DNA from: a virus
IMG/VR virus record: IMGVR_UViG_3300020146_000025
Span: 1-23,909 of that record
Length of the DNA: 23,909 bases
Reading direction: 5' to 3' (one strand)
Position numbers and translations under genes: made by a program. The notes below the pieces were generated by a model. The model ran no database searches. It was given only the letters and a program-made list of their open reading frames with translations, and had not been told where the DNA came from. This document shows positions 5,906 to 22,472 of this stretch, piece by piece; the stretch's first letter is position 1; each line of letters opens with the position of its first letter.

Positions 5906-5940
5906 AGATGGTTCATCAACAAGAGCGAGAGGAACACATC

Positions 5941-6177
5941 ATGACCACCACTGCGAAGTCTGAGATCGTCGTCGATGCACTGTCTGAGTTCGGTCCGGAG
6001 GTCATCAAGACTGAGGCCACGATCGATCTCTCCAAGTACGCCCACCTCAACACCAGCGGTAAGATTCGCGCGATGGCTGCTGATGGGTACCAGCGGAACG
6101 CGATCGCCAAGGCGCTGGGCAAGCGCTACCAGCACGTCCGGAACGTCCTCCTGACCCCACTGAAGCGCGCCCAGTAA
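5941..6177 (+). CDS. Small HTH-like protein, early paralog 1
   Basis: This 78-residue protein contains DLSKYAHLNTSGKIRAMAAD, then GYQRNAIAKALGKRYQHVRN and a basic end. The segment KIRAMAADGYQRNAIAKALGKRYQHVRNV reads as a helix-turn-helix, with ADGYQRNAIAKALG as the turn region. It is clearly homologous to the protein at 7522-7899 and more distantly to that at 20822-21238. The start at 5941 follows GAGAGGAA at good spacing; an in-frame ATG at 5908 lacks one and lies too near the promoter. It is the first gene after the rightward early promoter and is followed directly by hammerhead ribozyme 1. A DNA-binding regulatory role is likely but not shown. Confidence 0.85.
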   Translation: MTTTAKSEIVVDALSEFGPEVIKTEATIDLSKYAHLNTSGKIRAMAADGYQRNAIAKALGKRYQHVRNVLLTPLKRAQ

Positions 6178-6181
6178 GACA

Positions 6182-6240
6182 GGTCGAAACAGGGATCCGT
6201 GCGATCCCTGTCTGCCCGTCAGGCGGGCACTGAGGAGACC
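6182..6240 (+). ncRNA. Type II hammerhead ribozyme 1
   Basis: Stem II is open to the flanks: GGTC (6182-6185) pairs with GACC (6237-6240). The core GAA (6186-6188) is followed by A6189, which pairs with T6211. Stem III is CAGGGATC/GATCCCTG (6190-6197/6203-6210, loop CGTGC). Predicted cleavage follows C6212. Stem I is TGCCCG/CGGGCA (6213-6218/6224-6229, loop TCAGG), then core CTGAGGA (6230-6236). Every conserved hammerhead position (CUGANGA, GAAA, UH) is present. It lies between the genes at 5941 and 6244, and GAGGAG at 6232-6237 is also the ribosome binding site of the latter. Cleavage would leave the upstream mRNA ending in the stem III hairpin and the downstream mRNA starting in the stem I hairpin. 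Confidence 0.93.
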
Positions 6241-6243
6241 AAG

Positions 6244-6420
6244 ATGCTTGAGGCGATCCAAAACCACTCCAACCCGGAGGGCCTATTCTGGCACCTCATG
6301 CTGGCGGCCTCGGTCGTCGTCACGGTCGTCCTGTTCTACGGGTACCTGATCTATGATGTCGTGTCACGCCGGATGGCCAAGCGGAACCGCCGCAACCGCC
6401 GCCGGACCAATCGGAGGTAA
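6244..6420 (+). CDS. Small membrane protein downstream of hammerhead 1
   Basis: This 58-residue protein has one predicted transmembrane helix, residues about 14-40 (LFWHLMLAASVVVTVVLFYG onward), and a very basic tail (KRNRRNRRRTNRR). By the positive-inside rule the tail should be cytoplasmic. Its ribosome binding site GAGGAG (6232-6237) is part of the catalytic core of hammerhead ribozyme 1. The next gene starts 2 bases after its stop. Function unknown; a small early membrane protein with an RNA- or lipid-interacting tail is possible. Confidence 0.8.
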   Translation: MLEAIQNHSNPEGLFWHLMLAASVVVTVVLFYGYLIYDVVSRRMAKRNRRNRRRTNRR

Positions 6421-6422
6421 CC

Positions 6423-6749
6423 ATGTCCTACAATCGTGCTATGACTAAGGTCCTGGAGGCCCTAGGGCTTAACCCGGACCGCCACCTCCCCCGGGAGGGC
6501 CATCCCCGGACGACCATCCTGGACTTCCCGGACTGGAGGGGGAAGCCCATGTTCTACGCCGCCTCTACCTCCCAGGCGAGGTCCGTCATGGTCTGGGTCT
6601 CCCCGGCCAAGGTGGGACGTACCTACAAGTCCTCCCAACACCGGGTCATGTGCGAATGCCCGCACTGCGGGGACGTCCTATCCGCCGGGCGGCTCCACCA
6701 GCACGTAGGGACCGACCGGTGCTACCAGAACTGGAGGCGCAGCCCCTGA
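6423..6749 (+). CDS. Hypothetical protein with C-terminal zinc-finger-like motif
   Basis: This 108-residue protein carries CECPHCGDVLSAGRLHQHVG followed by TDRC near its C-terminus. C79, C82, H92 or H94, and C100 look like a zinc site of C2H2/C2HC type. The N-terminal part (ILDFPDWRGKPMFYAASTSQ) looks beta-rich. GGAGG lies 4 bases before the ATG; an internal ATG at 6441 is an alternative but has no better site. It is coupled to the membrane protein gene upstream and ends the first early transcription unit. Possibly nucleic-acid binding; family not recognised. Confidence 0.78.
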   Translation: MSYNRAMTKVLEALGLNPDRHLPREGHPRTTILDFPDWRGKPMFYAASTSQARSVMVWVSPAKVGRTYKSSQHRVMCECPHCGDVLSAGRLHQHVGTDRCYQNWRRSP

Positions 6750-6767
6750 CGCCCGCAATAAACGCCT

Positions 6768-6802
6768 AGCTGGACCGCGAAAAGACTACTTGCGGTCCAG
6801 CT
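6768..6802. other. Perfect 11-bp inverted repeat overlapping a promoter -35 box
   Basis: AGCTGGACCGC (6768-6778) and GCGGTCCAGCT (6792-6802) are perfect complements with a 13-nt loop. The 3' arm contains most of the -35 box TTGCGG (6790-6795) of the next promoter. It could act as a hairpin ending the upstream transcript (no T-tract follows) and as a dyad operator for the promoter. Confidence 0.65.
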
Positions 6803-6840
6803 GGGACCTGCTATATAATATTGGCATAAGTTGAGAGGAG
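6790..6840 (+). promoter_or_regulatory. Early rightward promoter, member of repeated family
   Basis: TTGCGG (6790-6795) and TATAAT (6814-6819) are exactly 18 bp apart. The downstream sequence CATAAGTTGAGAGGAG matches the family motif and supplies the AGAGGAGG ribosome binding site for the gene at 6847. Confidence 0.85.
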
Positions 6841-6846
6841 GTCCAA

Positions 6847-7110
6847 ATGTCGATCGTGGTCCCAGTATTCGATCCTACCGAGGACGATGCGAAGCAGGTC
6901 GAACGCCTGACTGAGTACGTCACTGAGCTGCTTGGGGACGAGCCCCTCCAAGACGCCCTCCACCAGATGGCCTGCCGGAAGTTAGGCATCGATCCTGACA
7001 AGATCGACCAGAACGATGACGCGACGTGGTGTAAGCTCAACGTCGAGGCCACCAAGTACTTCAAGGCCATCATGGTAGGCGTCAACAAGTGGGCCGAGGC
7101 CCTAGAATAG
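6847..7110 (+). CDS. Hypothetical early protein preceding hammerhead 2
   Basis: This 87-residue acidic protein reads as mostly helical (EDDAKQVERLTEYVTELLGD; later EATKYFKAIMVGVNKWAEAL). A strong GAGAGGAGG precedes the ATG. It is the only gene between this promoter and hammerhead ribozyme 2, the same arrangement as promoter, gene at 5941, hammerhead 1. It shows no clear similarity to the HTH paralogs, so the shared layout is not simply a duplicated gene. Family and function not recognised. Confidence 0.8.
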   Translation: MSIVVPVFDPTEDDAKQVERLTEYVTELLGDEPLQDALHQMACRKLGIDPDKIDQNDDATWCKLNVEATKYFKAIMVGVNKWAEALE

Positions 7111-7113
7111 TCA

Positions 7114-7166
7114 GGACGAAACCCCACCTAGTGGGGTCTGTGGGTTGTGCCCACACTGAGGAGTCC
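7114..7166 (+). ncRNA. Type II hammerhead ribozyme 2
   Basis: Stem II is GGAC (7114-7117) with GTCC (7163-7166). Core GAA (7118-7120) is followed by A7121, pairing with T7137. Stem III is CCCCAC/GTGGGG (7122-7127/7131-7136, loop CTA). Predicted cleavage follows C7138. Stem I is TGTGGG/CCCACA (7139-7144/7150-7155, loop TTGTG), then core CTGAGGA (7156-7162). Core positions are identical to ribozyme 1 while stem sequences differ with compensatory changes: stem II GGTC/GACC versus GGAC/GTCC, and stems I and III almost wholly changed. It lies between the genes at 6847 and 7174; GAGGAG (7158-7163) is the ribosome binding site of the latter. Confidence 0.93.
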
Positions 7167-7173
7167 AACTACC

Positions 7174-7398
7174 ATGACCTATATCGAGATCGCCCTCAAC
7201 CGCGTGCGGTCGGGTGTGTACGTCCAGATCCGTGAGCTGCCTAACGGCAAGCCCTACTGGCACGTCTCGCGGCCAGACGGTACCGGCTGGAACTTCGGGT
7301 CCGCCGGTCTGGCCTTCCGGTACTACCTCAAGTCGGTCCGCGAGTACGCCCCTGTATTAGGGCGGGGAGCCGTGATCGACCTGAATAAGGCCACATAA
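7174..7398 (+). CDS. Hypothetical protein downstream of hammerhead 2
   Basis: This 74-residue basic protein starts MTYIEIALNRVRSGVYVQ. The start at 7174 is chosen because GAGGAG (7158-7163), part of the ribozyme core, lies 10 bases upstream; an in-frame start at 7147 would fall inside the ribozyme. The pattern of short alternating segments (YVQIRELPNGKPYWHVSRPD) suggests a small beta-sheet fold with a final helix. No family recognised. It ends shortly before the promoter at 7428. Confidence 0.8.
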   Translation: MTYIEIALNRVRSGVYVQIRELPNGKPYWHVSRPDGTGWNFGSAGLAFRYYLKSVREYAPVLGRGAVIDLNKAT

Positions 7399-7413
7399 AA
7401 GCACCTCATTCGA

Positions 7414-7434
7414 CCATCAAATTCCAGTTGATGG
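7414..7434. promoter_or_regulatory. Dyad CCATCAA-N7-TTGATGG overlapping a -35 box; candidate operator copy 1
   Basis: Perfect 7-bp arms (7414-7420 and 7428-7434) surround ATTCCAG. The right arm includes the -35 box TTGATG of the following promoter. The left arm plus spacer (CCATCAAATTCCAG) is nearly identical to elements at 20717 and, inverted, at 23100, both also beside promoters of this family. A repressor binding here would block the -35 box. Confidence 0.65.
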
Positions 7435-7475
7435 TTCTGTGAGTCCTGCGTTATAATAGTTGTGTAAGATGGAGA
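7428..7475 (+). promoter_or_regulatory. Early rightward promoter, member of repeated family
   Basis: TTGATG (7428-7433) and TATAAT (7452-7457) are 18 bp apart. AGTTGTGTAAGATGGAGAG follows and matches the family motif. It precedes the second HTH paralog, with a leader of about 60 bases. Confidence 0.88.
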
Positions 7476-7521
7476 GAGGGCAATGGTGCTCTCGATCCTA
7501 CCACGCCAAAGGGAGTCCAAC

Positions 7522-7899
7522 ATGGCTAAGAACACTGCCCAGAAGATCGCCGAGCAGGTCGGCGTCGAAGTCCTCGAGAAGGTTGAGACCCAGGTCGAGG
7601 AGGCCGTGAAGACCGGCGTCGAGACCGCCCTGCAGAACGTGCAGCCCGGTGCTCCGATGGCGCGTCCCGGCAACCAGCTCAAGCAGGCGCCGAACGTCGA
7701 CATGTCGAAGTACGCGCACCTCGCCACGAAGTCCGACAAGATTCGGGCGATGCATGCCGATGGGATCGCGAAGGCCGATATCGGTCGACTGCTCGACATC
7801 CGCTACCAGCACGTGCGGAACGTGCTGACCCAGCCGATGAAGAAGCAGATGAACCAGCCCGCGGCGTCCTCGTCGACTGATACCACCAAGGCGGCCTAA
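7522..7899 (+). CDS. HTH-like protein, early paralog 2, with N-terminal helical extension
   Basis: This 125-residue protein has an N-terminal amphipathic helical region (VEVLEKVETQVEEAVKTGVE) likely to form a coiled coil. A linker follows, then the domain shared with the gene at 5941: DMSKYAHLATKSDKIRAMHA, then DGIAKADIGRLLDIRYQHVR and NVL. The C-terminal tail is low complexity. The start at 7522 follows AAGGGAG; the in-frame codon at 7483 has no site. Paralogy with 5941-6177 is clear by eye over about 45 residues. Probably an oligomeric DNA-binding regulator; its target might be the repeated promoter or operator elements, which is inference. Confidence 0.88.
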   Translation: MAKNTAQKIAEQVGVEVLEKVETQVEEAVKTGVETALQNVQPGAPMARPGNQLKQAPNVDMSKYAHLATKSDKIRAMHADGIAKADIGRLLDIRYQHVRNVLTQPMKKQMNQPAASSSTDTTKAA

Positions 7900-7959: not shown

Positions 7960-8433
7960 ACATCCGGGACCGCCTAAAAGATGTTAGGGCGGTGGGCCGA
8001 GGGCAGCACCGGGCGTCCAGGAGGTAGTTGTGGGTAGCGGTCACATTAGGGTCAAAACTAGGTTTCGTAGGCTAACAACAGTTCCTGGTGAGATCAAGGC
8101 GATCATTGAAATCATTGGGCAAACTCAGTTTACACCCAGTTTGAACAGAAATGCAGTATTCTACCCTATATATATCAATATTACACCTTACTACATTCCT
8201 GACTAGGTATGGTATGGCCCAGGATCATAGACCTATAGCCTTATTGCCTTTATCCCATTCCTTTATCGGTCTTCTTGTCTTTAAGTTTAACATTAGTCTT
8301 TTTATTGACAATAATGCAATATTGTTCAAATTGACTATAAATTGAGTATGCTCAATAAAATCAATAGGTTAAGATCAAACCTGGTACAGTATCTTGAGTA
8401 GTTTGCGTCCCACATCACAGGAAGGAGCAAGCC
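7960..8433. other. Gene-free region with an AT-rich core; possible origin or control region
   Basis: No convincing gene is seen. The part from about 8080 to 8400 is strikingly AT-rich compared with the rest of the window. It holds several dyads: CAAACT-N12-AGTTTG near 8120, an imperfect palindrome around 8305-8329 (TTGACAATA to TATTGTTCAA), and ATTGAG-TATG-CTCAAT near 8341-8356. Promoter-like boxes (TTGACT at 8331 with TAAAAT at 8356, 19 bp apart) may serve the gene at 8434, but they do not match the family seen elsewhere. A near hairpin CCGCCTAA...TTAGGGCGG lies near 7968-7990. Base composition and dyads would fit a replication origin, but no iteron set was found. Confidence 0.5.
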
Positions 8434-20821: not shown

Positions 20822-21238
20822 ATGTCGAAGCGCAACCGTGACCGTAGCAAGCCAATCTCGGAGGGCAACCAAACCTCCGAGGTGACCGAAGCTCCGGTCC
20901 AAACTGCCCCAGAGGAGGGCCAACAGACGATGACCGATACCAATACTGCCGAGACTCAGGCTGCACCGGCTACTCCGGCGGCTCCTGCCGCTGTGAAGGA
21001 CGGCTCCAAGGTGATTCTCACCAACGGCGAGCCGCGCGTCGACTTCATCCGCCGACTGTGGGCCGAGGGGAAGACTCGCTCCGAGATCACCAAGGCGGTG
21101 AACGAGCTGAGCGGCGGCATCAAGGTACCGTATCAGGTGATCTTCGGCGTCACCAAGAAGGAGAAGGACAAGGCCGCGGCGGCGGCTGCCAAGGCCGCCG
21201 GCGGTGGTGATGCTCCGGCTCCGGCTCCGGCTAGCTGA
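20822..21238 (+). CDS. HTH-like protein with disordered tails, distant paralog 3
   Basis: This 138-residue protein follows GAGGAG. Residues 1-60 are low complexity (Thr/Ala/Glu/Pro-rich), and the end is Ala/Pro-rich (APAPAPAS). The central domain, GEPRVDFIRRLWAEGKTRSE then ITKAVNELSGGIKVPYQVIF, resembles the domain of the proteins at 5941 and 7522: R/K-hydrophobic start, xAxGxxRxxI, then PYQV versus RYQHV and a basic segment. I regard it as a distant relative. It lies under the same kind of promoter. A DNA-binding regulatory function is likely by analogy only. Confidence 0.8.
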   Translation: MSKRNRDRSKPISEGNQTSEVTEAPVQTAPEEGQQTMTDTNTAETQAAPATPAAPAAVKDGSKVILTNGEPRVDFIRRLWAEGKTRSEITKAVNELSGGIKVPYQVIFGVTKKEKDKAAAAAAKAAGGGDAPAPAPAS

Positions 21239-21846: not shown

Positions 21847-21876
21847 CCTAGTCGACCGAGGCAGTGGGTACATCTA

Positions 21877-21938
21877 GGGCGCTGTAACGCCCGAAAAGAG
21901 GTAGTCAGGGTGTTACAGCAGTCTGGCGTTGTAACCCT
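21877..21938 (+). promoter_or_regulatory. Leader with mutually exclusive hairpins before the RuvC-like gene
   Basis: Hairpin 1 is GGGCG/CGCCC (21877-21881/21888-21892). Its loop region CTGTAAC (21882-21888) can instead pair with GTTACAG (21912-21918). That same segment can also pair with TGTAAC (21930-21935), extended by GGG/CCC with one bulged base. The following gene (ATG 21957) has no clear ribosome binding site. This looks like a switchable leader; ligand or protein unknown. Confidence 0.5.
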
Positions 21939-21956
21939 CCTGGTGTACCTCCTACC

Positions 21957-22472
21957 ATGGTTGACTTAGAGACCTTAGCCAAACAACTCCTAGGTGGTGA
22001 GCAGTACGAAGCTCGCTGCAACCTCCGTGTGCTCTCCTTCGATCCGGGCGAGACTACAGGAGTGGCCTACTTCCGGGGGTTCCGGCTGGCCTCAACTGAG
22101 CAGCTAAACACTTCACATCCTGACATAGCGCTGAAGGCTATCACGAACTACTGTGACGGCTGTCCGTGTGATGTGGTGGTTATGGAGGACTACCGAGTCT
22201 ACCAGTGGAAGCTGAAGCAGCACTCGTTCTCCAACCTGTACACGCCTCGCATCATCGGCATGCTGGAGACCCTCTGCCTACAACGGGAGTGGCCATATCA
22301 TAAGCAGTCTGCACAGCAAGGCAAGGGCTTTGTTACGGACGCCAAGCTCGAGTCCTGGGGGTTCTACAAGAAGGGGCAGAGGCACGCACGTGACGCGATG
22401 CGGCATGGGTTGTACTTCTTGCTCTTCCCACCCCAGACGATCACCTCACAAGCAATAACCCGGGGGACATAA
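21957..22472 (+). CDS. RuvC-like Holliday junction resolvase / RNase H-fold nuclease
   Basis: This 171-residue protein has the RuvC/RNase H pattern: VLSFDPGETTGVAYFRG (D29), VVVMEDYRVY (E77) and GQRHARDAMRHGLYFL (D146), in order and spacing of a RuvC-type fold with catalytic acidic residues. It would cleave branched DNA during phage recombination or before packaging. The start at 21957 lacks a purine-rich ribosome binding site, an oddity shared with the structured leader just upstream. It ends 1 base before the next gene. Confidence 0.88.
   Translation: MVDLETLAKQLLGGEQYEARCNLRVLSFDPGETTGVAYFRGFRLASTEQLNTSHPDIALKAITNYCDGCPCDVVVMEDYRVYQWKLKQHSFSNLYTPRIIGMLETLCLQREWPYHKQSAQQGKGFVTDAKLESWGFYKKGQRHARDAMRHGLYFLLFPPQTITSQAITRGT

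Follow-up and report, generated by a model that had tools for sequence, protein, structure and literature searches.

Background

Type II hammerhead ribozymes occur in bacteria and phages, with several at one locus, and cleave in vitro and in E. coli (Perreault et al. 2011, PMC3088659). They are a circular permutation of the hammerhead fold in which stems I and III are closed and stem II is open (PMC3088659; RF02276). In the published consensus, loop I forms a pseudoknot with the tail that follows stem II. The HHphage ribozyme of the archaeal haloviruses HF1 and HF2 is a core variant located 13 nt before a start codon in an early operon, and the mRNA 5' end maps to within three nt of its cleavage site; an overlap with a Shine-Dalgarno sequence is not mentioned, and the terms "Shine-Dalgarno" and "ribosome binding" are absent from the text of that paper (PMC3088659). 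The role of hammerheads in bacteria and phages has been described as an open question (PMC6155905), and the reason for their gene associations has been called still unknown (PMC10085705). In engineered hammerhead and twister platforms cleavage controls access to the Shine-Dalgarno sequence, which the twister constructs pair with an anti-Shine-Dalgarno strand in a stem (PMC5052635; Wieland and Hartig 2008, cited there).

The two elements described here have the circular permutation and the conserved core of type II hammerheads, and share with those of bacteria and phages the intergenic position and the presence of more than one copy at a locus (PMC3088659). They resemble HHphage in lying shortly before a start codon. 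They differ from the published consensus in that no pseudoknot is evident and loop I is a short UNNNG, and their subgroup differs in the A before stem II and in a core that appears to double as a Shine-Dalgarno sequence. Unlike the artificial platforms, it is a natural catalytic core that would supply the Shine-Dalgarno sequence. RiboJ-type ribozyme insulators consist of an engineered hammerhead and a hairpin that trim the mRNA 5' leader, and their ribosome-binding site is downstream of the ribozyme, not inside it. The elements belong to a known ribozyme class, as a variant with an apparently undescribed second use. A search of the open literature, to which subscription journals and supplements do not belong, found no natural hammerhead core described as a Shine-Dalgarno sequence, and this absence is weak evidence.

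Results

Location and anatomy of the two elements

The window, i.e., the whole stretch of DNA that was analysed, is the IMG/VR virus record IMGVR_UViG_3300020146_000025 (23,909 bases) from an uncultured phage. The genes for portal- and terminase-like proteins lie on the minus strand of its lower part. The terminase has 42–48% identity, across about 70% of its length, to those of Acidovorax phage AP1 and Bordetella phage BPP-1; a search of IMG/VR for terminase relatives gave one distant contig. A comparison of the region and of the ribozyme DNA with GenBank phages gave no relatives carrying the element. The plus strand displays a series of small genes from 5.9 kb onward, and both hammerheads are in gaps between them. 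The features are as follows.

5908–6177, plus strand: gene 5' of copy 1, 89 aa, or 78 aa from the ATG at 5941; TAA stop
6182–6240, plus strand: type II hammerhead ribozyme, copy 1; predicted cut after C6212; GAGGAG at 6232–6237
6244–6420, plus strand: gene 3' of copy 1, 58 aa; third-position GC 0.86
6847–7110, plus strand: gene 5' of copy 2, 87 aa; third-position GC 0.80; TAG stop
7114–7166, plus strand: type II hammerhead ribozyme, copy 2, from pattern and stem scan, folding, family covariation and covariance model
7114–7117, plus strand: copy 2, stem II upstream strand GGAC, which pairs with GTCC at 7163–7166
7118–7121, plus strand: copy 2, invariant core GAAA (G12 A13 A14 A15.1)
7122–7136, plus strand: copy 2, stem III hairpin CCCCAC(CTA)GTGGGG; 3' end of the upstream mRNA if cleaved
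7137–7138, plus strand: copy 2, UC cleavage site; predicted cut after C7138
7139–7155, plus strand: copy 2, stem I hairpin TGTGGGT(TGT)GCCCACA of the UNNNG pentaloop subgroup; 5'-OH end of the downstream mRNA if cleaved
7156–7162, plus strand: copy 2, core CUGAGGA (CTGAGGA in the DNA), with G at N7 (G7160)
7158–7163, plus strand: copy 2, GAGGAG, putative Shine-Dalgarno sequence of gene 7174, which takes in core bases and the first stem II base
7174–7398, plus strand: gene 3' of copy 2, 74 aa; third-position GC 0.81

The window element has the core CUGANGA, GAAA and NUH in type II order. In copy 2, stem II has 4 bp, stem III has 6 bp and the A15.1-U16.1 pair, and stem I has six Watson-Crick pairs and a terminal U.G. 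The NUH rule is the established basis for predicting where hammerheads cut, and together with the sequence it agrees with the predicted cleavage after C7138 that was given in the initial annotation. Each copy fills the space between two genes: the upstream stop ends 4 nt (copy 1) or 3 nt (copy 2) before stem II, and the ATG starts 3 nt (copy 1) or 7 nt (copy 2) past it. Stems I and III are unrelated between the copies, yet both copies fold as a hammerhead, as had been claimed from the window alone. Chance, repeat and mobile-element readings of the two copies were rejected because of these unrelated stems.

The ORFs flanking both ribozymes have a third-position GC of 0.77–0.86 vs a GC of 0.58 for the window, and look genuine by this measure. 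In the searches made, the genes flanking the ribozymes have no detectable relatives; a similarity search gave none for the upstream 87-aa protein, and no PHROGs or Pfam family matched gene 7174–7398. The proteins of 5908–6177 and 7522–7899 (plus strand), which are about 1.5 kb apart, have in common the stretch IRAM.ADG...RYQHVRNVL. This suggests a possible duplicated family of DNA-binding-like proteins around the ribozymes. The gaps 6755–6846 and 7399–7480 (plus strand) each contain a strong hairpin with a TATAAT-like box after it, and the box in the latter scores as a promoter; the ribozyme-bearing genes may therefore form short transcription units. Elsewhere in this otherwise GC-rich and gene-dense record, positions 8030–8400 are AT-rich with little coding signal. 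Positions 21867–21963 (plus strand) give a sub-threshold int-alpA match (RF02996, 29.9 bits, cut-off 35.8, E=0.014), directly 5' of an ATG at 21957 and overlapping that ATG.

Conservation of the hammerhead structure

A strict scan of the window for pattern plus stems gives exactly two matches. Dinucleotide shuffles (300, both strands) give three loose matches, none with stems of comparable length. Folded by itself, each segment has exactly the hammerhead as its minimum free energy structure (-23.7 and -28.5 kcal/mol, z -2.0 and -3.0), and the hammerhead is retained in the minimum free energy fold with longer flanks.

Relatives were sought in IMG/VR with a DNA pattern that fixes only the core and the bases at the stem ends; the N7=G form gives 52 stretches, which is complete, and the form with any base at N7 gives at least 120. 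Of the distinct matches listed, which are unselected for folding, 152/174 form stems I and III, vs 32/3480 with shuffled inserts. The stem II pair that the pattern leaves unspecified is formed in 173 of these 174. Changing GAAA to GAGA in the pattern reduces the matches to seven, none with both stems, vs at least 120 for GAAA.

An alignment of 28 relatives with the window left out shows 99.8% of stem cells paired, a percentage that is inflated because these relatives came from a scan demanding stems, and double-sided changes are present in 13 of the 16 pairs. None of 500 shuffles is comparable, and registers slid along the alignment have 31–42% of cells paired. Covariation supports all three helices, stems I and III closed and stem II open, in type II order. 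A covariance model trained on the 28 relatives, window excluded, finds copy 1 with 60.7 bits (E=1.5e-19) and copy 2 with 58.2 bits (E=1.3e-18); the next match has an E of 0.019.

The reading of 7114–7166 as a type II hammerhead is supported, and the coordinates and core given in the initial annotation are confirmed by the sequence, the shuffles and the independent covariance model. That annotation had also taken the differences between the two copies as covariation evidence within one window. The comparison of two copies is thin evidence by itself, since any two unrelated hammerheads would differ likewise, but the alignment of 28 relatives is the proper test, and the structure passes it.

Absence from Rfam matches

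A search of the window against Rfam at gathering thresholds, and at E up to 5, gives no hammerhead match, and RF02276 (Hammerhead_II) run on the record matches neither copy and does not reach its gathering score. The same model gives nothing for the N7=G copy of a related contig (L028). It recovers pseudoknot members in the same contigs, and several N7=U members score 35–48 bits; those N7=U members that are pseudoknot-less have 35–37 bits, with a cut-off of 37. The recovery of pseudoknot members and the scores close to the cut-off indicate that the miss reflects the emphasis of the model. It is a limit of RF02276 and not of the structural definition.

Both copies belong to a subgroup in which stem II is 4 bp long, stem I is 17 nt long and has a UNNNG loop, and a pseudoknot is not evident. 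A pseudoknot of at least four pairs between loop I and the 3' tail, a majority feature of type II that is not universal, is absent in copy 2 by eye; the subgroup has a loop I of 5 nt, and the tail of copy 2 could pair UUG with CAA at most. An A is directly 5' of stem II in 207 of 211 subgroup members, a base that is specified by no search pattern. This A probably contacts the UNNNG loop in the tertiary structure.

The catalytic core as a putative Shine-Dalgarno sequence

N7 tolerates any base for catalysis. Where it is G, as in both window copies, CUGAGGA and the first stem II base, G, contain GAGGAG, a Shine-Dalgarno motif. The GAGGAG is 10 nt from the ATG in copy 2 and 6 nt in copy 1, with anti-Shine-Dalgarno duplexes of -6.7 and -7.2 kcal/mol, respectively. 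Both copies thus have a purine-rich match to the anti-Shine-Dalgarno sequence 4–12 nt before the start of an apparently genuine gene. A GAGGAG 6–10 nt from the ATG is also an ordinary leader of ribozyme-free genes in this phage, e.g., those at 20822 and 14030.

The base at N7 tracks the distance to the start codon. Starts were assigned as the first ATG of an ORF of at least 30 codons, ignoring Shine-Dalgarno strength; a rule that used this strength (25/30 vs 1/153) was set aside as circular. By the first-ATG rule an ATG is 3–13 nt away in 25 of 30 N7=G members vs 17 of 153 with another base, and with the window left out in 23/28 vs 17/153. Phylogenetic tests on sequences of 52 nt were considered too weak, so members were grouped by blastn into clusters of similar DNA context, and one member was counted per cluster and N7 class. 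The close ATG is then present in 18/20 N7=G cases vs 4/73 otherwise (p=1.7e-13). A test blind to ORFs, which accepts any ATG up to 9 nt past stem II, gives 20/24 vs 8/87 clusters. In a test blind to starts, the 30 nt past stem II pair more weakly with the anti-Shine-Dalgarno sequence when N7 is G (p=0.0003). Loci fetched later as a replicate contain no N7=G members, since the first pattern had already gathered those matching it, and they enlarge the non-G group only.

Where N7 is not G, a separate Shine-Dalgarno sequence usually comes next. The contrast is present within single contigs: L028 has one N7=G copy with AACATG after it, and two N7=U copies with AACCCAAGGAG and a later ATG after them; L004 is similar. 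Several of the 17 non-G exceptions read ATGGAG...ATG, and the second ATG has its own Shine-Dalgarno sequence. Of the N7=G members that do not fit, one (L024) has its own Shine-Dalgarno sequence and two (L022 and L033) are without a nearby start. The fusion is rare in the pseudoknot class, where the pseudoknot takes up the 3' tail; three of its nine N7=G members are near an ATG. N7=G alone does not imply Shine-Dalgarno use, since about half of the N7=G cases of that class have a separate Shine-Dalgarno sequence.

The association points to selection on the base composition at N7 for Shine-Dalgarno use. The catalytic core appears to double as the ribosome-binding site of the downstream gene, and this appears to recur across unrelated phages. 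The earlier statement that structure and not sequence is selected holds for the stems, which covary, but constraint also falls on N7 and on the distance to the start codon, apparently as a result of Shine-Dalgarno use.

Position between genes in related phages

In the fetched loci, 284/349 hammerheads have a same-strand stop codon that ends from -10 to +2 nt relative to the first ribozyme base. The controls are 309/4000 random positions (7.7%) and 53/349 on the other strand (15%). Among the 75 subgroup members that have an ORF upstream, 19 have a stop that shares one nt with the ribozyme, at its first base. Flush upstream stops are as common in N7=U/C members.

Some relatives have hammerheads in long series. 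In contig IMGVR_UViG_3300033551_000003 (loci L025 and L051; G005:C1, 42.6–60.7 kb) a stretch of about 18 kb contains 25 hammerhead matches, which precede many successive genes. This series also holds two sub-threshold matches to the HDV-F-prausnitzii ribozyme (L025, 1907–1971 and 2269–2333). A second phage (G008; L063, 2.6–7.6 kb) has 11 pseudoknot-less type II hammerheads over 5 kb, one per intergenic gap for most genes. The position flush with stops and the series are properties that would be expected of dividers of polycistronic mRNA.

Discussion

Proposed mechanism

The element is probably a self-cleaving mRNA divider that occupies the full spacer from stop to start in a polycistronic phage mRNA and provides, in its 3' arm, the Shine-Dalgarno sequence of the downstream gene, with the cleavage and any effect on translation deduced from the sequence. 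The RNA would fold as a hammerhead, as covariation supports, and the intact consensus core predicts that it cuts itself after C7138. The two halves, joined by the 4-bp stem II alone, would then separate. By the chemistry of hammerhead cleavage the upstream mRNA would terminate with the stem III hairpin and carry a 2',3'-cyclic phosphate there. Its downstream counterpart would start with the stem I hairpin and a 5'-OH, followed directly by GAGGAG and the ATG. The ribosome would use GAGGAG (G5 A6 G7 G8 A9 and the first stem II base) as its Shine-Dalgarno sequence, a step to which the close ATG of N7=G members and their lack of another Shine-Dalgarno sequence lend support.

Residues G5–A9 could not pair with the 16S anti-Shine-Dalgarno sequence while they form part of the catalytic fold. 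Cleavage and initiation would therefore be mutually exclusive on one molecule, and cutting may in this way license translation. It is suggested tentatively, with the chances somewhat against it, that this is a natural ribozyme class whose core serves as the Shine-Dalgarno sequence, so that cleavage excludes ribosome recruitment and each phage gene so equipped has a built-in licence or timer for its translation. The coupling of cleavage to translation is the weakest step of this reading. In the secondary structure calculation a freeing of GAGGAG by cleavage is not supported; the cost of opening it goes from 2.8 to 1.9 kcal/mol in copy 1 and from 2.0 to 2.5 kcal/mol in copy 2. Any occlusion before the cut would thus have to arise from the tertiary structure of the core.

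Alternative explanations

The element may instead be a pure divider or insulator that cuts the polycistron and leaves hairpin-protected ends, its core having become a Shine-Dalgarno sequence from scarcity of intergenic space, with no coupling of cutting to translation. This has nearly an even chance of being correct. Most relatives keep the spacer position with a separate Shine-Dalgarno sequence, which argues that the common function is to cut between genes, with the fusion optional. The many copies ahead of successive genes in some phages (25 in G005, 11 in G008) and the absence of Shine-Dalgarno opening upon cleavage in the calculation are also in its favor. A divider is compatible with a dual-use sequence, and the dispute is confined to the coupling; there, the mutual exclusion of core fold and anti-Shine-Dalgarno pairing would seem physically hard to avoid. 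Coupling in the reverse direction, where a ribosome ending at the upstream stop or initiating at GAGGAG unfolds the core, so that heavily translated mRNA escapes cutting and untranslated mRNA does not, is unlikely. It would accommodate both a core that is a Shine-Dalgarno sequence and stops that are flush with or overlap the ribozyme in most relatives, but such stops are equally common in N7=U/C members and are expected from the compact packing of phage genes.

The two same-strand copies flank a block of genes (6244, 6423 and 6847), and such flanking arrangements have been reported for bacterial hammerheads (PMC3088659). The copies might excise an RNA of about 0.93 kb (6213–7138), which could be circularised via its 5'-OH and 2',3'-cyclic phosphate as in retrozymes. 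This is quite improbable in view of the single ribozyme detected in many loci (which are partial), the long serial arrays in other phages, and the copies themselves, whose stems I and III differ and which have no repeated flanks that could be seen. That the sequence is an inactive hammerhead-like relic or a product of chance is scarcely credible. RF02276 matches neither copy and self-cleavage is predicted from sequence only, but the shuffles, the family covariation, the independent covariance model, the stems of the unselected matches and the GAGA control all argue against it, and Rfam does find pseudoknot members and places pseudoknot-less N7=U ones near its cut-off.

Significance

A core that is also a ribosome-binding site would tie the ribozyme to mRNA processing and to the translation of a specific gene. 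If the dual use is true, N7, which is neutral for catalysis, should matter for translation. For synthetic biology, the element would be a natural 53-nt combination of an RNA cutter and a ribosome-binding site. The dual use suggests a testable purpose for phage hammerheads, and if cutting does license translation, this would be a physiological role for at least one branch of the hammerheads of bacterial viruses.
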